Shown: in pieces, positions 1-22,702 of the stretch
Position numbering within the stretch: the first letter of the stretch is position 1
Layout of the letters: the number at the start of each line of letters is the position of its first letter
NCBI RefSeq assembly: GCF_000024405.1
Contig: NC_013517.1
Span: forward strand, 2,232,001-2,296,000
DNA length: 64,000 bases
Direction of reading: 5' to 3'
From: Sebaldella termitidis ATCC 33386
Lineage (GTDB): Bacteria > Fusobacteriota > Fusobacteriia > Fusobacteriales > Leptotrichiaceae
Translations under genes and position numbers: made by a program
The notes under the pieces: model-generated
What the model was told of the DNA's origin: nothing
Seen by the model: the letters and a program-made list of their open reading frames with translations, nothing else
Databases searched by the model: none

Positions 1-1611
1 ATAGCTGAAAAAATAGGATTGACAGAGGATGAATATGAACAATACGGGAAGTACAAGGCAAAGGTGGAGCTGAGCGTTCTGGAAAAATATAAGGATAAGA
101 AAGACGGTAAGCTGATTTTGGTCACAGCGATAACACCGACACCTCCGGGAGAGGGAAAATCAACAGTATCTGTAGGATTGACACAGGCATTTAACAAATT
201 CGGATATAATTCTATAGCTGCATTAAGAGAACCGTCATTAGGCCCGGTTTTCGGGATAAAAGGCGGTGCAACAGGCGGCGGGTATTCGCAGGTAGTTCCC
301 ATGGAAGATATAAATCTCCATTTTACTGGTGATCTACATGCGATAACAGCAGCACATAATTTAATCTCGGCATGCATAGATAATCATCTGAAGCATGGCA
401 ATGAACTAAATATAGACATTACACAGATTACGTGGAAACGTGTTCTGGATATGAATGACAGAGCTTTAAGAGATATAGTCATAGGAATGGGCGGAAAAGC
501 AAACGGCATACCGAGAGAGTCGTCTTTTCAGATAACTGTTGCTTCTGAAATAATGGCAATACTGTGTCTTTCAAATTCTATACCTGATTTAAAAGAAAAA
601 ATAGGAAATATAATTTTCGGATATAATGGTAAAGGTGAGCCGTTAAAAGTAAAGGATCTGAAAATAGAGGGAGCTGCGGCAGCATTGCTGAAGGAAGCAA
701 TAAAACCTAATCTGGTACAGACTTTGGAAAATACACCGGTATTTATACACGGCGGACCTTTCGCAAACATAGCCCACGGGTGTAATTCCATACTTGCCAC
801 AAAAATGGCATTGAAGCTTTCGGATTATGTAGTGACGGAAGCAGGATTTGCAGCTGATCTGGGAGCAGAAAAGTTCCTTGATATAAAAGTGAGAAAAGCA
901 GGATTAAATCCTAATGCAATAGTAATAGTAGCTACAATCAGAGCATTGAAACACCACGGCGGCGGAAGTGACCTTACATTGGAAAACATGGAAACGTTAA
1001 AAGCCGGTATGGCAAATCTGGATAAGCATATAGAAAATATGCAGAAATACGGGATACCTGTAGTGGTAGCAATAAATAAATTTATAACTGATACTGAAAA
1101 AGAGATCGGTTTTGTTAAGGAACACTGTGAAAAAGCAGGTGTTAAAACAGCACTTTGTGAAATTTGGGAAAAAGGCGGGGAAGGAGGAAAAGAACTGGTA
1201 GATATTCTTATAGACGAGACAGCAGAAGAAGGCAGAGAATACAAACCGCTGTATGAGCTGGATCTGGGCATAAAAGAAAAAATCACAAAAATAGCCATGG
1301 AAATATATGGTGCAGGAAATGTGGAATTCTCAGATAAGGCCGGAAAAACAACGGTAAAACTGGAAAAACTCGGATATGGAAATTTACCTGTATGTATATC
1401 AAAAACACAAAAATCACTTTCGGATAATCCGGCACTTCTTGGGCGTCCTGAAGGGTTTACAGTAAGAATAAATGAAATAAGAATATCGGCAGGTGCAGGA
1501 TTTATAGTAGCAATGGCCGGGGAAATAATAGATATGCCGGGGCTTCCGAAAAAACCGGCTGCGGAATTAATAGACATAGATAAAGACGGAAAAATAAACG
1601 GATTATTTTAA
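1..1611 (+). CDS. fhs: Formate--tetrahydrofolate ligase, 5'-truncated by window edge
   Basis: ATP-dependent ligation of formate to tetrahydrofolate, giving the 10-formyl-THF used by the purine transformylases. The reading frame is open from base 1 ([11 protein letters not shown]...), so the true start lies outside the window. The family is about 555 residues and 536 are visible, so roughly 20 N-terminal residues are missing; the TTG at position 19 is not the start. The P-loop [11 protein letters not shown] lies near residue 46 of the visible part, and family blocks such as [15 protein letters not shown] and [16 protein letters not shown] are intact. The gene directly precedes a guanine riboswitch and the purine operon, whose PurN and PurH need its product. 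Identification is secure from sequence motifs. Confidence 0.97.
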
Positions 1612-1757
1612 CTCATATATGTCCTGAATATGGCAGGACGTTTCTACAAGTTACCTTAAATAACGGGCTATGAGTAAGAGTACAAAGCATGAACATGTTC
1701 TGATGCTTTACTTTTACTTATGCGTATGCAGTGAATGTAAAGTATCGGAATTTTTTT
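1611..1757 (+). promoter_or_regulatory. Guanine-type purine riboswitch with transcription terminator
   Basis: Aptamer: P1 pairs ACTCATA (1611-1617) with TATGAGT (1669-1675). P2 pairs GTCCTG (1621-1626) with CAGGAC (1634-1639). The loop AATATGG and the joining segment TTTCTAC match the purine aptamer core. P3 pairs GTTA (1650-1653) with TAAC (1661-1664). The discriminator base just before the 3' P1 strand is C (1668), which indicates guanine/hypoxanthine rather than adenine. Expression platform: GATGCTTTAC (1702-1711) pairs with GTAAAGTATC (1737-1746) and is followed by T7 (1751-1757). The 3' P1 strand and following bases (about 1669-1690) can instead pair with 1703-1720 as an antiterminator. 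The predicted logic is ligand-induced termination before purL. Confidence 0.93.
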
Positions 1758-15469: not shown

Positions 15470-15498
15470 TTGACATTTATACGTGTTTTTATTATAAT
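15470..15498 (+). promoter_or_regulatory. Consensus promoter of the amino-acid ABC operon
   Basis: TTGACA (15470-15475), 17-bp spacer, TATAAT (15493-15498). Transcription would start near 15505, about 30 bp before the leader peptide. Confidence 0.85.
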
Positions 15499-15534
15499 TC
15501 TAAATAATAGAATGTAATTTTAGGAGGAACTAAA

Positions 15535-15576
15535 ATGATAAGTAAAAATCTGGAAAGCATGTGTCATCATAGGTAG
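15535..15576 (+). CDS. Leader peptide MISKNLESMCHHR
   Basis: A 13-codon frame with a strong site (TAGGAGGAAC, 15521-15530) 5 bp before its ATG. It encodes MISKNLESMCHHR and stops at TAG. It lies about 30 bp after a consensus promoter and inside the 5' arm of a predicted terminator. The last sense codons are TGT-CAT-CAT-AGG (Cys-His-His-Arg). That arrangement is typical of a leader whose translation senses aminoacyl-tRNA supply. The peptide itself probably has no other role. Since the operon encodes amino-acid transporters, Cys or His is the likely signal. Confidence 0.75.
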   Translation: MISKNLESMCHHR

Positions 15577-15656
15577 TGAGTTTGTGCAGTTATGGTACAG
15601 ACTCATGTTGAAATGATTAAATTGAGTCTTGCCTGTGATGCTTTCGGAATTTTTTT
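15553..15656 (+). promoter_or_regulatory. Transcription attenuator overlapping the leader peptide
   Basis: The 5' arm lies in the leader codons: CATCATAGG (15565-15573) pairs with CCTGTGATG (15632-15640), and GAAAG (15553-15557) with CTTTC (15641-15645). T7 follows at 15650-15656. Between the arms, GAGTTTGT (15578-15585) can pair with ACAGACTC (15597-15604), and AGACTCA (15599-15605) with TGAGTCT (15623-15629). These are mutually exclusive hairpins. A ribosome held at the Cys/His codons would cover the 5' arm and permit readthrough. Confidence 0.7.
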
Positions 15657-15678
15657 AACTTTAGTCCTTTTAAATAAG

Positions 15679-15706
15679 CTCTCAGGGAACTGAGAGAATT
15701 TTTTTT
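15679..15706 (+). terminator. Second terminator in the leader of the ABC operon
   Basis: CTCTCAG (15679-15685), loop GGAA, CTGAGAG (15690-15696), then T8 (15699-15706). It is compact and strong, and ends 29 bp before the solute-binding gene, so transcription of the operon must escape two tandem terminators. Confidence 0.88.
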
Positions 15707-15735
15707 ATTATAATCTTAAGGAAAGGAAGGTAGCT

Positions 15736-16533
15736 ATGAAGAAAATAATCTTATTATTAATATTTCTGCTGAGTATACTGATGTGTTCCAAGAAAGAGGA
15801 CGGTCAGACTGAAGCAACTGCCGGTGAGCAAAAGCTTCCTGATAAAATAATAGTCGGGCTTGATGACACATTTGCACCTATGGGATTTAGAGATGAGAAA
15901 GGCGAGCTTGTAGGATTCGATATTGATCTTGCGAAGGCAGTAGCTGAAAAACTTGGTATTGAAGTACAGTTTCAGCCGATAAACTGGGATTCAAAAGAAA
16001 TGGAGCTGAAAAACGGAAATATTAATCTTATATGGAATGGTTTGTCAATAACTGAAGAAAGAAAAAAACAGCTTTTATTCTCAGTGCCTTATCTGGAAAA
16101 TTCACAGATAATACTTGTGAAAAAAGATTCTCTTATTAAGACTAAAGAAGATCTGAAAGGCAAAATAATAGGAACACAGAGTAAAAGCAGCGGTGAAGAT
16201 GCAGTTCTTGCTGATCCTGTTAATTCAGAGCTGAAAGAGCTGAGAACATATGATACTTATGATCAGGCATTCTTAGACCTGGATGCCGGAAGAATAGAGG
16301 CAATAGCAGGTGATGAGGTACTGGCAAGATTCATAAAAGCTAATAAAGAAAAGAAAGAAGGCAAAGAATTATACACTATTCTTGAAGGCAGCGACTTTGG
16401 AAAAGAGGAATACGGAATCGGAGCAAAAAAAGAAGATACATACTTAATTGAAAAAATAAATGAAACAATAGAAGAACTAAAAAAAGACGGTACATATAAA
16501 AAGATATACGATAAATGGTTTGGTGCAGAATAG
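15736..16533 (+). CDS. Amino-acid ABC transporter, solute-binding lipoprotein
   Basis: 265 residues, family 3 extracellular solute-binding protein (polar amino-acid uptake family). The signal peptide ends at Cys17 (ILMC, a slightly poor lipobox). Family blocks are FAPMGFRDEKGELVGFDIDL, GLSITEERKKQLLFSVPYL, GKIIGTQSKSSGEDAV and DGTYKKIYDKWFG. The LIWNGLSITEER-type segment is common in cystine and related binders, but sequence alone does not fix the ligand. The upstream leader with a Cys-His-His run and the downstream methionine transporter favour cystine, with histidine as the alternative. First gene of a run to about 21.6 kb. The ATG follows AAGGAAAGGAAGGTAGCT. Confidence 0.9.
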   Translation: MKKIILLLIFLLSILMCSKKEDGQTEATAGEQKLPDKIIVGLDDTFAPMGFRDEKGELVGFDIDLAKAVAEKLGIEVQFQPINWDSKEMELKNGNINLIWNGLSITEERKKQLLFSVPYLENSQIILVKKDSLIKTKEDLKGKIIGTQSKSSGEDAVLADPVNSELKELRTYDTYDQAFLDLDAGRIEAIAGDEVLARFIKANKEKKEGKELYTILEGSDFGKEEYGIGAKKEDTYLIEKINETIEELKKDGTYKKIYDKWFGAE

Positions 16534-16541
16534 GAGAAAAA

Positions 16542-17189
16542 ATGAGCGAATTATCTATTTTTATTCAAATTCTAAGTTCATTGCCTAATGTGATAATAGT
16601 TTACACTGTTACGGCTTTGATATCGCTTCCGCTTGGTATAATCGGAGCATTGGCCTATACAGGTAATTCTGTGATCATAAAAAAAAGTATATCATTTTAC
16701 ACATGGATATTCAGGGGAACACCTCTGATACTTCAGTTATTCTTTATATATTACGGACTGCCGACGCTGACTAATAACGCAGTAGTCCTTGACAGAATGC
16801 CGGCTGCACTTATTACATTCATAATAAATTATACTGCATATCTTATAGAGATAATAAGAAGCGGACTGGAAAGCATTGATAAAGGTCAGGATGAGGCTGC
16901 CAAAGTACTTGGTTATTCATATTTCAAAAAAATATGGTATATTCTTCTGCCGCAGGCAATCAGAAGAGTACTGCCGTCACTTGGAAATGAGGCAATTACA
17001 CTGGTAAAGGATACTGCACTTATATACATAATCTCATTAACGGAAATATTAAAAACAACCAAAGAGATAGCCAGCAGATATTCCATAATAACTCCGTATT
17101 TTTACGCCGGACTGATTTATCTGGGACTTAGTTTCCTTATAGACAGAATATTTAAAAATATGGAGAAAAGAAATAAGGTGAGAGTATAG
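16542..17189 (+). CDS. Amino-acid ABC transporter permease
   Basis: 215 residues with several hydrophobic membrane segments. It carries the HisM/GlnP-type permease motif: the EAA-like loop DEAAKVLGYSYFKKIWYILLPQAIR, together with FRGTPLILQLFFIYYGLP. It forms the membrane channel for the neighbouring binding protein and ATPase. The frame is open from 16515 inside the preceding gene, but the ATG at 16542 has TAGGAGAAAAA before it, begins MSELSIFIQIL and is chosen. The ATPase starts 2 bp after the stop. Confidence 0.92.
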   Translation: MSELSIFIQILSSLPNVIIVYTVTALISLPLGIIGALAYTGNSVIIKKSISFYTWIFRGTPLILQLFFIYYGLPTLTNNAVVLDRMPAALITFIINYTAYLIEIIRSGLESIDKGQDEAAKVLGYSYFKKIWYILLPQAIRRVLPSLGNEAITLVKDTALIYIISLTEILKTTKEIASRYSIITPYFYAGLIYLGLSFLIDRIFKNMEKRNKVRV

Positions 17190-17191
17190 CC

Positions 17192-17923
17192 ATGGACATT
17201 ATAGAAATAAGAAATATAAACAAAAGTTACGGTGAAAACAGGGTTTTGAATGATATTTCACTGAAAGTGGCAAAAGGGGAAGTAGTTTCCATTATCGGAC
17301 CTTCGGGAAGCGGAAAGTCGACACTGCTGAGAAGTATAGCTGATCTTGAAACAGTAGACAGCGGAAGTATACTTATAGAAGGTTACGATATAACTGAAAA
17401 ATCTATGGATAAGAAGGAAAAGAAAAAAATACTTTTGAAAACCGGCATGGTATTTCAGAATTTTAATCTTTTTCCTCATATGACTGTAAGAAATAATATA
17501 GCAAGAACCTTGAAGGTAGTAAAAAAAGCATCTGCTAAAGAAGCTGATGAAATAACAAAACAGATGCTGGCAAAAGTGGGACTTATAGATAAAATAGATA
17601 ATTATCCAAATGAGCTGTCAGGCGGTCAGAAACAGAGAGCTGCAATAGCGAGGGCTATGGCGCTTGATCCAGATATTATGTTATTTGACGAGCCGACCTC
17701 GGCACTTGATCCTGAACTGGTAAAAGAGGTTCTTGATCTGATAAAGAAGCTGAGAGATGAAAAAACTACAATGTTAATAGTCAGCCATGAAATGAAATTT
17801 GTAAAAGAAATTTCCGATAAAGTAATAGTTATGGAAAAAGGAAAAATACTTGAGGAAGGAACATCTGGAAAAGTTTTTGAAAATTCTTCTTCTGAAAGAG
17901 TAAGGGAATTTTTGAAAAAGTAA
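17192..17923 (+). CDS. Amino-acid ABC transporter ATP-binding protein
   Basis: 243 residues with all ABC ATPase motifs: Walker A GPSGSGKST (near residue 36), Q-loop VFQNFNLFPHMT, signature LSGGQKQRAAIARA, Walker B IMLFDEPTSALDP and switch His in LIVSHEMKF. It belongs to the GlnQ/HisP/TcyC-like polar amino-acid group and powers the transporter with the two preceding genes. The start codon lies 2 bp after the permease stop, with AAGGTGAG inside the end of the permease gene. The next gene begins 15 bp downstream, so cotranscription is likely. Confidence 0.94.
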   Translation: MDIIEIRNINKSYGENRVLNDISLKVAKGEVVSIIGPSGSGKSTLLRSIADLETVDSGSILIEGYDITEKSMDKKEKKKILLKTGMVFQNFNLFPHMTVRNNIARTLKVVKKASAKEADEITKQMLAKVGLIDKIDNYPNELSGGQKQRAAIARAMALDPDIMLFDEPTSALDPELVKEVLDLIKKLRDEKTTMLIVSHEMKFVKEISDKVIVMEKGKILEEGTSGKVFENSSSERVREFLKK

Positions 17924-17938
17924 AGATGTAACAAGATT

Positions 17939-18727
17939 ATGAAGAAATCTTTTATAGTTACAATCACTGACTCAAAAGGAATCAAAAGTTATAAATTCAG
18001 TCAAAAAATAAAAAAGATAGTCTCTATGCTGGGAATTTCCGTAACAATATATCTGTTAATTTCTATAATTGCTTTATTATTTCTTGGAGGGTCTTATCTA
18101 AAAAATATAGATATTTTATCCCAAAACAGCGAACTGAGAAAATTTAAGAATGATTATGAAGAGGAACAGAAAAGGGAACAGGAAAGAGAAAATAAAAAAG
18201 CTACAATGAGCAATCTGAATGAGGTATCAAAAACAAAAAAAAGAAAAGTGCTTACAATGATACCAAATTCATATCCTGTAAAACCGGATACAAGAGTAAC
18301 AAGTCCGTTCGGCGGAAGAATACACCCTATAGCAGGTGTGCAGAAAGATCATAAAGGGATTGATTTCGGAACAGGAATGAATGCTGATATATTTTCTACT
18401 GCTGATGGTATAGTAAGCTTTGCAGGACAGCAAAACGGATATGGAAATGTGGTAATAATCGATCACAGCTTCGGGCTGCAGAGCTTTTATGCACATTTGG
18501 ATTCATATTCGGTAAAAACAAGGGAATTTGTAAAAAAAGGGCAGGTAGTAGCCAAAAGTGGAAATACCGGTAACAGCACCGGGCCGCACCTGCATTATGA
18601 AATAAGATTCTACGGGGTGCAGCTTGATCCTATGAATTTTATAAAATGGAGCGAAGATGATTTTGAATATTTATTTAAAAACGAGAGGAGTATAGAATGG
18701 GAGTCTTTTCTAAAGGAAATAATATGA
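17939..18727 (+). CDS. Membrane-anchored M23 (LytM) endopeptidase
   Basis: 262 residues. One transmembrane helix (about 30-55, VSMLGISVTIYLLISIIALLF) is followed by a charged, probably coiled-coil segment (about 65-100) and a C-terminal M23 peptidase domain (about 120-245). Zinc ligands are visible in HKGIDF (His, Asp) and HLHYEI (HxH); SPFGGRIHPI and GNTGNSTGPH also match. It should cut peptidoglycan cross-bridges in the periplasm. The bactofilin gene starts inside its 3' end. Such M23-bactofilin pairs are a known cell-shape module. The start ATG has only a weak site upstream. Confidence 0.92.
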   Translation: MKKSFIVTITDSKGIKSYKFSQKIKKIVSMLGISVTIYLLISIIALLFLGGSYLKNIDILSQNSELRKFKNDYEEEQKREQERENKKATMSNLNEVSKTKKRKVLTMIPNSYPVKPDTRVTSPFGGRIHPIAGVQKDHKGIDFGTGMNADIFSTADGIVSFAGQQNGYGNVVIIDHSFGLQSFYAHLDSYSVKTREFVKKGQVVAKSGNTGNSTGPHLHYEIRFYGVQLDPMNFIKWSEDDFEYLFKNERSIEWESFLKEII

Positions 18728-19092
18728 TTTCGGAAACAAATATAACAGTAATATCACAAAATACAGAACTGAAGGGTGATATAGTAACTGAGGGAATAAT
18801 ACAGATAGAGGGGAAAATAGACGGGAAAGTAGTTTCTAAGGATTCTGTAATTATAGGGACAGACGGTATAGTAAACGGTGAAATTTATTCAGAGGAAGCT
18901 GTAATAAACGGAACTCTTCTGGGAAAAGTAGAAGCTACAAAAGTAAAAATCGGTGAAAGAGGAAAAGTAAACGGTACAATAATATCAGAAGTATTTGCAA
19001 TATCTGAAGGCGGAGATTTTGAAGGTGACAAAAAAATGAGAATCAAAAAAGCAGAATCATCATATTCAGATGTAAGTTCGGAATTGTCTTAA
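18697..19092 (+). CDS. Bactofilin
   Basis: 131 residues dominated by the bactofilin beta-helix repeat: ISQNTELKGDIVTEGIIQIEG, GKIDGKVVSKDSVIIG, GIVNGEIYSEEAVING and GKVNGTIISEVFAISEGG. Bactofilins polymerise without nucleotide into filaments that position cell-wall enzymes. The start is ATG 18697, with GAGAGGAG 6 bp upstream inside the peptidase gene, giving a 31-bp overlap. The C-terminus is short and polar (KKAESSYSDVSSELS). Adjacent M23 peptidase and bactofilin genes occur in several phyla (for example Helicobacter CcmA with Csd1), so the two probably act together. Confidence 0.93.
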   Translation: MGVFSKGNNMISETNITVISQNTELKGDIVTEGIIQIEGKIDGKVVSKDSVIIGTDGIVNGEIYSEEAVINGTLLGKVEATKVKIGERGKVNGTIISEVFAISEGGDFEGDKKMRIKKAESSYSDVSSELS

Positions 19093-19112
19093 AATAATGA
19101 GAGGTGGAAAAG

Positions 19113-20126
19113 TTGGCAAAACACATAGAAGTAAAAAATCTGACTAAAATATATACAAATGTGGACAAAGAATTCAAAGCTGTGGACGATATTTCACTGT
19201 CAATCAATAAAAATGACATTTATGGAATAATGGGACTGAGCGGAGCAGGAAAGTCAACTTTTATCAGAATGTTAAACAGGTTAGAGGAACCAAGCTCCGG
19301 AGAAATCTATGTAAACGGAGAAAACATAGTAGAATTACCCAAAAAAAGGCTGTTGGAATATAGAAGAAAAACAGGAATGATATTCCAGCATTTTAATCTT
19401 TTAAGCTCAAGGGATGTAAAGGGAAATGTGGCTTTTGCCCTTGAGCTGGCCGGATGGCCGAAGAATAAAATAGAACCGAGGGTAGATGAATTACTTGAAT
19501 TAGTGGGGCTTGAAGACAAAAGAAATGTGTATCCAAGCCAGCTGTCAGGCGGTCAGAAGCAGAGAGTAGCAATTGCACGGGCATTGGCAAATTATCCCGA
19601 AATTCTGCTTTCAGATGAAGCTACAAGTGCTCTGGATCCCAGAACTACAGTCTCTATTCTGGAGCTGCTGAAAAATATTCAGAAAAAACTGGGACTGACT
19701 ATAGTACTGATAACCCACCAGATGGAAGTAATAAGAAAGGTATGTAACAGAACTGCTATATTGTCTGACGGAAAACTGATAGAAGAGGGAAGCACAAAGG
19801 AAATATTCCTGAATCCCAAGAATGAGCTCACAAGAGAATTCGTATCACATATAGCACCTGAAACAGAAAATAAAAAAGAAAAAATGAAAATAACAGGAAA
19901 ACAAATGCTGAAACTGAATTTTCAGGGAGAACAGGCTGAGAAACCTTATATATCAGACATGGTAAAAAAATACGGACTGGATGTAAATATTCTCGGCGGT
20001 ACTATAGATGAGCTTGCAGATGACAAGGTAGGCCATCTTTTGGTAGAGATTCTCGGGAGTGACACAGATAGAAACAGTGCGATAAACTGGCTGAAAGAAA
20101 ATAAGATAGAAGTGGAGGAAGTATAA
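19113..20126 (+). CDS. metN: Methionine ABC transporter ATP-binding protein
   Basis: 337 residues. Walker A is GLSGAGKST, the signature LSGGQKQRVAIARAL, Walker B ILLSDEATSALDP and the switch His is in LITHQMEV. The C-terminal NIL domain (about 265-337, MLKLNFQGEQAEKPYISDM onward) is the methionine-sensing regulatory domain that defines MetN. I choose TTG 19113 (MAKHIEVKNLTKIY), 5 bp after GAGAGGTGG. The GTG at 19104 lies inside that binding site. The stop overlaps the metI start (TAATG). Confidence 0.94.
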   Translation: MAKHIEVKNLTKIYTNVDKEFKAVDDISLSINKNDIYGIMGLSGAGKSTFIRMLNRLEEPSSGEIYVNGENIVELPKKRLLEYRRKTGMIFQHFNLLSSRDVKGNVAFALELAGWPKNKIEPRVDELLELVGLEDKRNVYPSQLSGGQKQRVAIARALANYPEILLSDEATSALDPRTTVSILELLKNIQKKLGLTIVLITHQMEVIRKVCNRTAILSDGKLIEEGSTKEIFLNPKNELTREFVSHIAPETENKKEKMKITGKQMLKLNFQGEQAEKPYISDMVKKYGLDVNILGGTIDELADDKVGHLLVEILGSDTDRNSAINWLKENKIEVEEV

Positions 20127-20806
20127 TGCAATTTGACTGGGCTGAATTTTTTAATTTTGGAAATATGCTTATTCCCCTCTGGGAAACCGTATATATGGTT
20201 TTAATATCTATGTTTTTTGCACTGCTTATAGGAATGCCTCTGGGAGTCCTTCTTGTAACAAGCTCTGAAAATCATATTGCACCTAACAGAAGTCTGAATA
20301 AAATTTTGGATATTATCCTTATTAATATTACAAGATCAATTCCTTTTATTATATTAATGGTAGTATTGATTCCTATAGCAAGAGGCATTATAGGAAAATC
20401 ATTCGGGAATGAAGCGTTTATTGTTTATCTGGCACTTGGCTCGGCTCCGTTTGTTGCACGTGTAATAGAGGGCGCTTTGAATGAGGTAGACAAGGGGCTG
20501 ATAGAAGCTTCAAAATCACTGGGAGCTACTAATTTTCACATAATAACAAAGGTGATGCTTCCGGAAGCACTTCCGTCTTTGATACACGGAATGGTACTTG
20601 CTCTTATAACACTCATAGGATATTCTGCAATGGCAGGTATAGTAGGCGGAGGAGGACTTGGAAACCAGGCGGTAGTAGCCGGTTTTCAGAACAGCAATCC
20701 TGCTATAATATGGAAAGCAACACTGATCATTATATTATTGGTACAGGTAATACAATTTTTTGGCAACCTTATAGTAAAAAAAATATATAAAAAACGAGGG
20801 AAATAG
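20126..20806 (+). CDS. metI: Methionine ABC transporter permease
   Basis: 226 residues with about five membrane segments. The MetI-specific blocks are TRSIPFIILMVVLIPIARGI, the EAA loop DKGLIEASKSLGATNFHII and IGYSAMAGIVGGGGLGNQAV. It pairs with MetN and MetQ for D/L-methionine uptake. Translation is coupled: its ATG overlaps the metN stop codon by one base. metQ begins 11 bp after the stop. Confidence 0.95.
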   Translation: MQFDWAEFFNFGNMLIPLWETVYMVLISMFFALLIGMPLGVLLVTSSENHIAPNRSLNKILDIILINITRSIPFIILMVVLIPIARGIIGKSFGNEAFIVYLALGSAPFVARVIEGALNEVDKGLIEASKSLGATNFHIITKVMLPEALPSLIHGMVLALITLIGYSAMAGIVGGGGLGNQAVVAGFQNSNPAIIWKATLIIILLVQVIQFFGNLIVKKIYKKRGK

Positions 20807-20817
20807 GAGGTAACAAA

Positions 20818-21642
20818 ATGAAAAAATTTTTAATAGGAATTCTGACATTGGGTGTAATATTTTCTTGCGGAAAAAAAGAAGAAACACCTGCAGCTGATAC
20901 AGGAAATCCAGAAGCACAAAAAGAACAGAAACTGGTAATTGGGGCAACACCAACACCGCATGCAGAAATTCTAGAACAGGTAAAAGAAGAACTGAAAAAA
21001 GAAGGAGTAGATCTTGAAATAAAAATATTTGATGACTATGTACTTCCAAACAGACTTCTTGGAGAAAAAACGCTGGATGCGAACTATTTTCAGCATGTTC
21101 CTTATATGGAAGAATTTGCACAGAAAAATAATATGGAGCTTGTTGCAGTAGCAAAAATACATGTGGAACCGCTTGCTGTATATTCTAAAAGTGTTAAGGA
21201 TTTATCTGAACTGCCTGAAGGTGCAGATGTATTAATTCCAAACGATCCTACTAACAGAGGAAGAGCATTGATATTACTGGATAAAAGCGGAATAATTAAA
21301 TTAAAGGATAACCAAAAACTTGACTCTACAATTGAGGATATAGCTGAAAATCCTAAAAAACTGAAAGTTACAGCATTAAATGCCGATCAGATTCCAACAA
21401 GACTTGGTGAAGTTGGGGCAGCAGTAATTAATGGTAATTTTGCAATGAAAAATAATCTGAATCCGCTTACAGACAGCATATTTATCGAAGATAAGGATTC
21501 ACCTTATGCAAATGTGATTACGGTTCTAAAAGGAAATGAAAATGACGAGAGAGTACAGAAATTGGTAAAAGCACTTCAAAGTGAAAAAATTAAAAAATTT
21601 ATTGAAGAAAAATATCAGGGATCTGTAGTACCGGCATTTTAA
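20818..21642 (+). CDS. metQ: Methionine-binding lipoprotein MetQ/NlpA
   Basis: 274 residues, NlpA family. The lipobox is VIFSC (Cys17), followed by a Lys/Glu/Ala linker and the fold beginning KLVIGATPTPHAEILEQV. Blocks DYVLPNRLLGEKTLDANYFQH, ALILLDKSGIIKL and GAAVINGNFAMKNNL are typical. It delivers methionine to MetNI. The start follows AATAGGAGGTAACAAA. It ends at a strong terminator, closing the run of genes that begins at 15.7 kb. A paralogue lies 256 bp downstream. Confidence 0.94.
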   Translation: MKKFLIGILTLGVIFSCGKKEETPAADTGNPEAQKEQKLVIGATPTPHAEILEQVKEELKKEGVDLEIKIFDDYVLPNRLLGEKTLDANYFQHVPYMEEFAQKNNMELVAVAKIHVEPLAVYSKSVKDLSELPEGADVLIPNDPTNRGRALILLDKSGIIKLKDNQKLDSTIEDIAENPKKLKVTALNADQIPTRLGEVGAAVINGNFAMKNNLNPLTDSIFIEDKDSPYANVITVLKGNENDERVQKLVKALQSEKIKKFIEEKYQGSVVPAF

Positions 21643-21650
21643 TAAAATAA

Positions 21651-21692
21651 AAAATCAGAAAGAGGTTTTCCAAATTCTTATCTGATTTTTTT
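21651..21692 (+). terminator. Terminator after metQ
   Basis: AAAATCAGA (21651-21659) pairs with TCTGATTTT (21681-21689) and continues into T8. Confidence 0.85.
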
Positions 21693-21706
21693 TAAAACTT
21701 TTTATC

Positions 21707-21841
21707 TAGTGTAGTGTTCTGGTCATAATCAGCTAAATGTTTAATAATTACGGCATTGTTACTGGTTTATATGATTTCTGCCGTGCAGAATGATAAATTA
21801 ATCAAAGTTTTTTTACTAATTGTGAGCAGGACACTGCACTA
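21707..21841. mobile_element. 135-bp MITE-like element with 26-bp terminal inverted repeats
   Basis: The left end (21707-21732, TAGTGTAGTGTTCTGGTCAT...) and the inverted right end (21816-21841) match at 21 of 26 positions. The termini begin and end in TA. The element is non-coding, and it has an internal inverted repeat ACGGCA/TGCCGT. It sits between the metQ terminator and the second metQ gene. TA-bounded terminal repeats suggest a miniature element mobilised by an IS630/mariner-type transposase. No transposase gene is in the window, so the family is an inference. Confidence 0.55.
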
Positions 21842-21898
21842 AAGATAAAGGATTTAAAGATATTCTATACAATGAAATACTTATAACAGGAGGAAAAA

Positions 21899-22702
21899 AT
21901 GAAAAAGATATTACTGGGAATACTAATGGGGGCATTTTTGCTTTCATGCGGAAACAAAGAGGATACAGCGGCAAAACCTGAAGGGGAAAAAGTTCTTTCG
22001 GTAGCAGCTACGCCTGAGCCTCATGGTGAAATACTGAAAGAAGCAGTACCGCTTATGGCAAAAGAAGGTATAGAGCTTAAAGTGGAGATTTTTAATGATT
22101 ATGTAATGCCGAATAAGGTTCTTACGGAAAAATCCGTTGATGCAAATATATTTCAGCATAAGCCGTTTTTAGATAACTATAATGAGAAAAACGGAACAGA
22201 TATAGTGGATGTGGCAAGAAGCTATACAGCGCCGCTTGCACTCTATTCAGACAAATATAAGGCTCTTGGCGAGCTGGAAGACGGAGCAGAAATTTTGATA
22301 GCAAATGATCCTACGAATCTGGCAAGATCATTGATACTGCTGGATAAAAACGGTATTATAAAATTAAAGGACCCAAATAATGTTGTAGCTACACTTGAGG
22401 ATATAGTGGAAAATCCTAAAAATCTGAAAATAACAACAATAACAGCGGATCAGATAGCAATAAGATTAAAAGAAGTGGGTGCAGCAGTAATTCCGGGAAA
22501 CTATGCAGTGAAAAACGGGCTTAATCCAAGAGAAAGTCTAGCAGTAGAAAGCAAAGATTCACCATATGTTAATATTATCGCAGTATTAAAAGGAAACGAA
22601 AATGATGAAAGAATACAGACATTAATAAAAGTACTTCATAGTGATGAAATGAAGAAAATAGTCGAGGAGAAATATCAAGGTTCAGTAATGCCGACATTCT
22701 AA
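21899..22702 (+). CDS. Second MetQ/NlpA-family lipoprotein
   Basis: 267 residues, clearly paralogous to the preceding MetQ: lipobox FLLSC (Cys17), VAATPEPHGEILKEAV, DYVMPNKVLTEKSVDANIFQH, LILLDKNGIIKL, KGNENDERIQTLIKVL. The two differ throughout (for example the loop before SIFIEDKDSPYAN versus LAVESKDSPYVN), so this is an old duplication rather than a recent copy. It may bind a different methionine derivative or serve as a second receptor for the same MetNI. The start has ACAGGAGGAAAAA. It is separated from the first copy by a terminator and a MITE-like element, so it is probably controlled separately. Confidence 0.92.
   Translation: MKKILLGILMGAFLLSCGNKEDTAAKPEGEKVLSVAATPEPHGEILKEAVPLMAKEGIELKVEIFNDYVMPNKVLTEKSVDANIFQHKPFLDNYNEKNGTDIVDVARSYTAPLALYSDKYKALGELEDGAEILIANDPTNLARSLILLDKNGIIKLKDPNNVVATLEDIVENPKNLKITTITADQIAIRLKEVGAAVIPGNYAVKNGLNPRESLAVESKDSPYVNIIAVLKGNENDERIQTLIKVLHSDEMKKIVEEKYQGSVMPTF

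Follow-up and report, generated by a model that had tools for sequence, protein, structure and literature searches.

The leader RNA that precedes an amino-acid ABC transporter operon in the window (the whole 64,000-nucleotide stretch of Sebaldella termitidis DNA analysed here) is very probably a ribosome-mediated transcription attenuator. It would sense mainly charged tRNA-His, would control an operon whose substrate is probably histidine, and would represent one copy of a scaffold on which the sensor codons have been exchanged. Genome comparisons show a leader ORF, conserved codons, co-evolving arms and agreement between the codons and the genes downstream. An earlier note on this DNA had proposed an attenuator in which a stalled ribosome masks the 5′ arm and allows readthrough, and the orthologous ORFs and covarying arms support that proposal.

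Elements of the leader and the transporter operon

The window's genome (4.49 Mb, 3 contigs) carries the following elements, given in window coordinates:

15470-15498, + strand: sigma70-type promoter TTGACA-17-TATAAT (12/12 consensus match; hexamers invariant in three congeneric genomes)
15522-15527, + strand: leader-ORF Shine-Dalgarno sequence AGGAGG (unchanged across three congeneric genomes)
15535-15576, + strand: leader ORF of 13 codons, MISKNLESMCHHR-TAG (homologous leaders with terminal His codons in about 30 genomes)
15562-15564, + strand: Cys codon within the leader ORF
15565-15570, + strand: His sensor codons within the leader ORF
15553-15575, + strand: arm 1, leader codons, partner of arm 4 when ribosome-free (fold, helix 1 covariation, swap test)
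15577-15587, + strand: arm 2, TGAGTTTGTGC, partner of arm 3 (helix 2 covariation; GTTTG recurrence after the stop)
15594-15605, + strand: arm 3, GGTACAGACTCA, partner of arm 2 or arm 4
15622-15645, + strand: arm 4, TTGAGTCTTGCCTGTGATGCTTTC, partner of arm 1, arm 3 or arm 5 (fold, covariation, swap test)
15646-15656, + strand: GGAA and T7, the tail of terminator 1 in the earlier note, probably the 3′ strand of an extended 1:4 helix (T run absent in genomes G001 and G003)
15676-15686, + strand: arm 5, AAGCTCTCAGG, terminator 5′ arm and antiterminator partner of arm 4 (duplex, family swap test)
15679-15706, + strand: intrinsic terminator, stem 15679-15685 with 15690-15696, then T8 (helix 3 covariation)
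15594-15709, + strand: match to Rfam RF04312 over the full model (1-107), below threshold at 21.1 bits vs. a cut-off of 59
15736-16533, + strand: amino-acid ABC transporter substrate-binding lipoprotein, probably for histidine
16515-17189, + strand: ABC transporter permease, polar amino-acid family
17192-17923, + strand: ABC transporter ATPase, GlnQ/TcyN family

The promoter ranked first among 25 promoter matches within 5 kb, and transcription would start near 15505. It had been recognised in the earlier note, as had the 13-codon ORF with its strong RBS and the amino-acid transporter operon downstream; all three stand, the operon comprising three genes of the polar amino-acid ABC family, for a lipoprotein, a permease and an ATPase. 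The predicted leader peptide is M-I-S-K-N-L-E-S-M-C-H-H-R-stop.

RNA 15505-15656 folds at −41.2 kcal/mol, compared with −26.6 ± 3.4 kcal/mol for shuffled sequences (z = −4.3; none of 200 as good). In this fold 15630-15645 pairs with the leader codons across a 7-nt bulge, which agrees with the assignment of the codons as a 5′ arm. Two mutually exclusive hairpins had been placed between the arms, and both inner pairings exist (15577-15587 with 15594-15605 vs. 15594-15605 with 15622-15633). The antiterminator pairing of 15631-15643 with 15676-15686 is absent from the earlier note; the arm 4:5 duplex of the window copy amounts to −12.0 kcal/mol, and AAGCTCTCAGG is invariant in seven leaders. The arm sequences include TGAGTTTGT in arm 2, TTGAGTCTTGCCTGTGATGCTT in arm 4 and CTGAGAG in arm 6. 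An unpaired motif resembling TTTTGTATT or TGTTGTATT was also seen in the loop of hairpin 3:4, e.g. at 15606-15621 of the window, and recurs across codon types.

The first hairpin with its T7 had been read as an intrinsic terminator, and this part of the earlier interpretation failed. The position of the T run (15650-15656) reads AATTATC in G001 and AAACTTG in G003, two sister species, and its absence from both speaks against a functional terminator. The G003 change has a counterpart on the 5′ side (AAAGTTT with AAACTT), being complementary to the altered leader codons; the T7 stretch is therefore regarded as a helix strand, and terminator 1 probably does not end transcription. The regulated terminator is instead the second (15679-15706), which was found as described at 15679-15696 followed by T8 and is retained in 32/32 elements of our first set of homologs.

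The structure model of the substrate-binding protein has a mean pLDDT of 89. Compared with histidine-bound 4ohn it shows 41% identity and a Z score of 24.4, and compared with ancestral arginine/glutamine binders 44-45% identity. The transported substrate is probably histidine, a reading based mainly on the leader codons. The region downstream of the transporter (17939-22702) holds metN-metI-like genes with two metQ-like lipoproteins, which an M23-type peptidase-like gene and a bactofilin-like gene set apart from the transporter; immediately upstream of metN no attenuator was seen in this region.

Pairing, ribosome position and the probable amino-acid signal

Homologous leaders were found by pattern and then with covariance model R1. 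Three of the 32 elements in the first set lie before other genes and carry Cys or Met codons. Across 31 sequences, 94.6% of cells in helices 1:4, 2:3 and 5:6 are paired, vs. at most 48% in slid controls, and these helices hold 60 double changes vs. 18.0 in shuffles (0/500); covariation of the arms had been named in the earlier note as a check, and the arms do covary. Helix 3:4 holds 21 double changes vs. 7.9 in shuffles (0/500). For arms 4:5, 97.7% of cells are paired in the Fusobacteriaceae-type leaders (slid controls at most 46%), and covariation within this one family did not exceed that of shuffles. Cognate 4:5 duplexes reach −11.3 and −12.8 kcal/mol vs. −6.3 and −3.9 for between-family swaps and −5.3 for shuffled sequences. 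As the swapped arms pair far worse than the cognate ones, we assign 4:5 as the antiterminator; a competing terminator and antiterminator are thus both present (32/32 terminators; antiterminator swap test). Swap tests also showed that leader codons and arm 4 co-evolve in the His, Pro, Thr, Asn, Trp and Cys types; cognate pairing of codons with arm 4 was no better than non-cognate pairing in Tyr- and Met-type leaders.

The effect of ribosome position was examined by masking a footprint of assumed size and folding the RNA up to the terminator 5′ arm, in equilibrium calculations. Among 109 leaders, engagement of the terminator arm with upstream sequence was 0.24 on ribosome-free RNA, rose to 0.47 when the A site held a sensor codon and was 0.38 when the ribosome stood at the stop codon; shuffled spacers gave 0.38, 0.40 and 0.38 for the same states (difference p = 5e-12 and 4e-4). 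The three expected states are clear in the homologs G018met, G018cys and G037. In ensemble folding of the window copy, the stop-codon state was not separated from the stalled state. Because the off-state at the stop codon was not cleanly reproduced there, the support for the window copy is mostly comparative.

We propose the following mechanism. On a leader without a ribosome, arm 1 would pair with arm 4 around hairpin 2:3; with arm 4 occupied, the terminator 5:6 would form and the operon would be off. Under a shortage of histidine, a ribosome stalled on the His codons would mask arm 1 and leave arm 2 free, hairpin 2:3 would form, and, given the co-transcriptional kinetics that we infer, free arm 4 would take arm 5 before arm 6 is made, giving readthrough (on). 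With ample histidine, a ribosome at the stop codon would mask arms 1 and 2, arm 3 would take arm 4, and the terminator 5:6 would again form (off).

About 30 Fusobacteriota genomes have homologous leaders with strong RBSs upstream of the same ABC transporter, so that the ORF is present in the orthologous operons that the earlier note had named for comparison. Across the phylum these transporter leaders end in HHR, HHHR, HHHHR(Y), HHHHHR or HHHHHHR, the ORF ends seen being MCHHR, MHHHR, THHHR, YHHR, LHHHHRY, IHHHHHR and HHHHHHR. The terminal His codons are conserved, usually together with Arg, and Cys is not conserved, being limited to part of the window's own family of transporter leaders. The window leader itself has only two His codons, beside one Cys codon. 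Leaders from two congeneric genomes share 81-90% identity with the window copy; ESMCHHR, the last seven codons, does not vary among three congeneric genomes, whereas the codons before it do. Upstream of the closest homologs of the substrate-binding protein (L021-L067), no clear C-H-H or HHR leader was found before the transporter. The covariance models were built partly from CAT-rich leaders and are biased toward His types.

The earlier note had named charged tRNA-Cys or tRNA-His as the signal. Histidine stood as the conserved sensor, and cysteine as the principal family-wide signal was ruled out, since Cys is not kept in the orthologous leaders. Within this genus, the operon might still encode a cystine-type transporter and its attenuator respond to cysteine, or to cysteine and histidine jointly, and we consider this rather unlikely. 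The invariant ESMCHHR (also found in G012) would fit such sensing, as would Cys-rich leaders of relatives on the same scaffold (MCCCM, MCCYM, MCSHRC), and a ribosome stalled at Cys would likewise free arm 2. However, G011, G009, G021 and all Fusobacteriaceae-type orthologous leaders lack Cys and keep His, the Cys-type paralogs sit before other genes, and the substrate-binding protein is nearer to histidine- and glutamine/arginine-binding proteins. Arginine was considered as well, since AGG/AGA is nearly invariant before the stop, and was rejected: a ribosome there would mask much of arm 2, and the AGG/AGA nucleotides are presumably required for pairing. Histidine is thus the most likely amino acid sensed.

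A transporter cluster in G009 (L109) has two attenuators, with a YHHR leader before the binding protein and an MCSHRC leader before the permease, after which it continues with an ATPase and metN; the binding-protein ORF has only 205 codons and may be broken.

Probable codon exchange on a shared scaffold

With the broader covariance models R2 and R3, whose matches were counted at E ≤ 0.01, the scaffold was found in 67/98 Fusobacteriota genomes. Genes downstream of representatives were named by NCBIfam and Pfam. Pro leaders precede putP, Thr leaders thrS, Tyr leaders tyrS and Trp leaders trpS; Asn leaders were found before asnA, and Met leaders before metN, metG and metY. Leaders with Trp/Tyr/Phe codons precede DAHP synthase, and Trp/Phe/Tyr leaders precede transporters; Thr-Ile(-Met) occurs before asd, Cys or Cys-Met before sulfite reductase, and His before hisZ. 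Where a gene could be assigned, the codons match it in 96/98 distinct leaders. The agreement among non-His genes alone is 48/50, compared with a mean of 11.5 and a maximum of 24 in 2000 permutations. The covariance E-values were not taken at face value: since some non-fusobacterial matches (L275, L277-L281) have no codon run, the codon-gene agreement served as an independent test.

The window's genome has three further copies, with the leaders KHHHIGRV before hisZ, NMCMCSRRV before a gene of the sulfite/nitrite-reductase family and NMMMYMRYRV before an O-acetylhomoserine-sulfhydrylase-type gene. In G018 the paired nucleotides CATAGGTA are kept and read in another frame, ...ATG TCA TAG (AMCMS), before metN. 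The sequence GTTTG lies within 25 nt of the stop in 57/105 leaders vs. 4.9 expected, and this shared post-stop sequence argues for common descent rather than convergence. Homologous leader-peptide attenuators would change their amino acid by a codon swap, with the RNA arms following, a behaviour best known from T-boxes.

Copies outside the phylum carry matching codons too, and a restriction of the scaffold to Fusobacteriota is thereby refuted. Clostridia copies have Phe and Tyr codons before sodium:neurotransmitter-type symporters and His codons before hisS-like and hisZ-like genes; in Bacilli, His codons (HHHH leaders) precede hisZ-like genes, and Trp and Tyr/Phe codons precede genes for TrpX-like binding proteins. 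The Clostridia and Bacilli genes were named from their N-terminal sequences, except in L276. No scaffold was found at E ≤ 1e-4 in 101 genomes of the class of Campylobacteria, to which G106 (Campylobacteraceae) belongs.

Leader codons may also predict the substrates of transporters: histidine for the window transporter, and, for sodium:neurotransmitter-type symporters, those indicated by Trp and Phe runs. An AGCS-family symporter gene and one for a TrpX-like binding protein follow Tyr-run leaders (L264 in G048 and L257 in G043), which predict tyrosine transport. In G070 (L243), a Thr-Ile-Met attenuator (MFRLTITTTIIIM, 311-464) is followed at 687-835 by a tandem glycine-type riboswitch (RF00504; also an RF03166 glycine-GGAnGA match of 95 bits, below the RF03166 cut-off), giving two stacked RNA controls before aspartate-semialdehyde dehydrogenase.

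Relation to the trpB motif and other leaders

The trpB motif (RF04312, SRC-39-1) was described by Narunsky et al. (2024) as a strong riboswitch candidate with unknown ligand, numbering over 900 representatives across Firmicutes and Fusobacteria, and its authors left a classic attenuator possible (PMC11109978). In a permissive Rfam search, only sub-threshold matches were obtained in the window, the trpB motif among them. The orthologous leaders L101 and L088 score 52.4 and 46.2 bits, both below the cut-off of 59, and copies with His, Pro, Tyr, Asn, Met and aromatic codons also match below it; the Bacilli elements L311 and L312 (model R3) score above it. The window copy, being below the cut-off, is not formally filed in this family and is here treated as homologous through these intermediates. 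It has the order of RF04312, with a first hairpin, then the terminator hairpin, and an antiterminator in the 3′ strand of the first hairpin: the first stem of the motif corresponds to arm 3:4 and the second to the terminator, with the antiterminator in the right shoulder of the first stem. The two also share their distribution in Firmicutes and Fusobacteria and the amino-acid genes downstream. In contrast to the window scaffold, the RF04312 model begins at arm 3 and so covers neither the leader ORF nor arms 1 and 2.

We therefore think it likely that the trpB motif is the 3′ half of a codon-programmable attenuator scaffold, a ribosome-read analogue of the T-box rather than a riboswitch. Across Fusobacteriota and Bacillota this single scaffold would have been duplicated and re-coded, the amino acids served being at least His, Pro, Thr, Tyr, Trp/Phe, Asn, Met and Cys; some copies would be mixed sensors, e.g. 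Thr-Ile-Met (asd) and Trp-Tyr-Phe (DAHP synthase). Such a reading would account, in a testable way, for an orphan riboswitch candidate of more than 900 representatives.

A ligand-binding riboswitch, in which an amino-acid-related metabolite bound by hairpin 3:4 would release or sequester the antiterminator and the small ORF would be incidental, appears highly improbable. Apart from the published standing of RF04312 as a strong riboswitch candidate (PMC11109978), it would draw on the loop motif TTTTG(T/A), present in 66/105 spacers vs. 43.7 expected, of which pairing gives no account. Yet the scaffold serves His, Pro, Thr, Tyr, Trp, Asn, Met and Cys genes with codons that vary with the gene (96/98), and the leader codons co-evolve with arm 4 in the His, Pro, Thr, Asn, Trp and Cys types. 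Stalling of a TnaC- or SpeFL-like nascent peptide on a free small molecule is barely credible: the C-terminal HHR-stop is indeed conserved in the leaders of the window's family, but the other positions of this peptide of 11-14 residues diverge, and relatives have their sensor runs away from the C terminus (e.g. CYHHHHMTFVSLY; in asnA leaders 7-8 codons follow the Asn runs). A constitutive 5′ UTR with an ordinary upstream terminator, its His codons, which lie within or beside paired arm 1, being fixed only by 1:4 pairing, is hardly tenable either, as G018 keeps the paired nucleotides in another frame (CMS) before metN and non-His leaders alter arm 4 along with the codons, matching the gene.

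In the his, trp and thr attenuators of E. coli, ribosome stalling at sensor codons selects between terminator and antiterminator. The attenuator proposed here differs in that the terminator 5′ arm is taken by an arm that also pairs with the leader codons, and in that a single homologous scaffold is used for many amino acids. Like the T-box (RF00230), which binds tRNA directly, the present scaffold is retargeted by codon exchange, but here it is translation of a leader ORF that would be read. No covariance match to RF00230 was found in the window, in line with the earlier statement that the leader is not a T-box, and none to RF00514 (histidine operon leader). For bacilli, a His leader peptide has been described before hisZ and hisS* (Naville and Gautheret 2010, PMC2965389), its short ORF carrying a run of His codons and being followed by a terminator; by this description it resembles the HHHH/hisZ Bacilli copies found here, and it was described for His and bacilli only. 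The Listeria Rli60 attenuator, a ribosome-mediated element demonstrated by experiment in a Gram-positive bacterium, has a 13-residue leader for branched-chain amino acids (PMC5864092); it shares a leader peptide and terminator/antiterminator, differs as a single, branched-chain locus, and is likewise compared by description. Our literature search, which reached a minority of subscription journals and preprints and used terms other than the name of the trpB motif, found no earlier paper on such attenuators in Fusobacteria.

A survey from 2008 found no T-boxes in its two Fusobacteria/Thermotogae genomes (PMC2494555). Among the 98 Fusobacteriota genomes analysed here, 20 have any T-box match and 2 have one over the cut-off, and the codon-exchanged scaffold suggests how a phylum with few T-boxes regulates its amino-acid genes. 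The window's genome has one T-box-like match (L283, G000:C1:427326-427559) of 76 bits, below the 93-bit cut-off. Among known Rfam leaders, none reached the gathering score in the window save a purine riboswitch elsewhere, an ordinary RF00167 aptamer (63 bits, window 1593-1690, + strand) about 6.5 kb upstream of purine biosynthesis genes.
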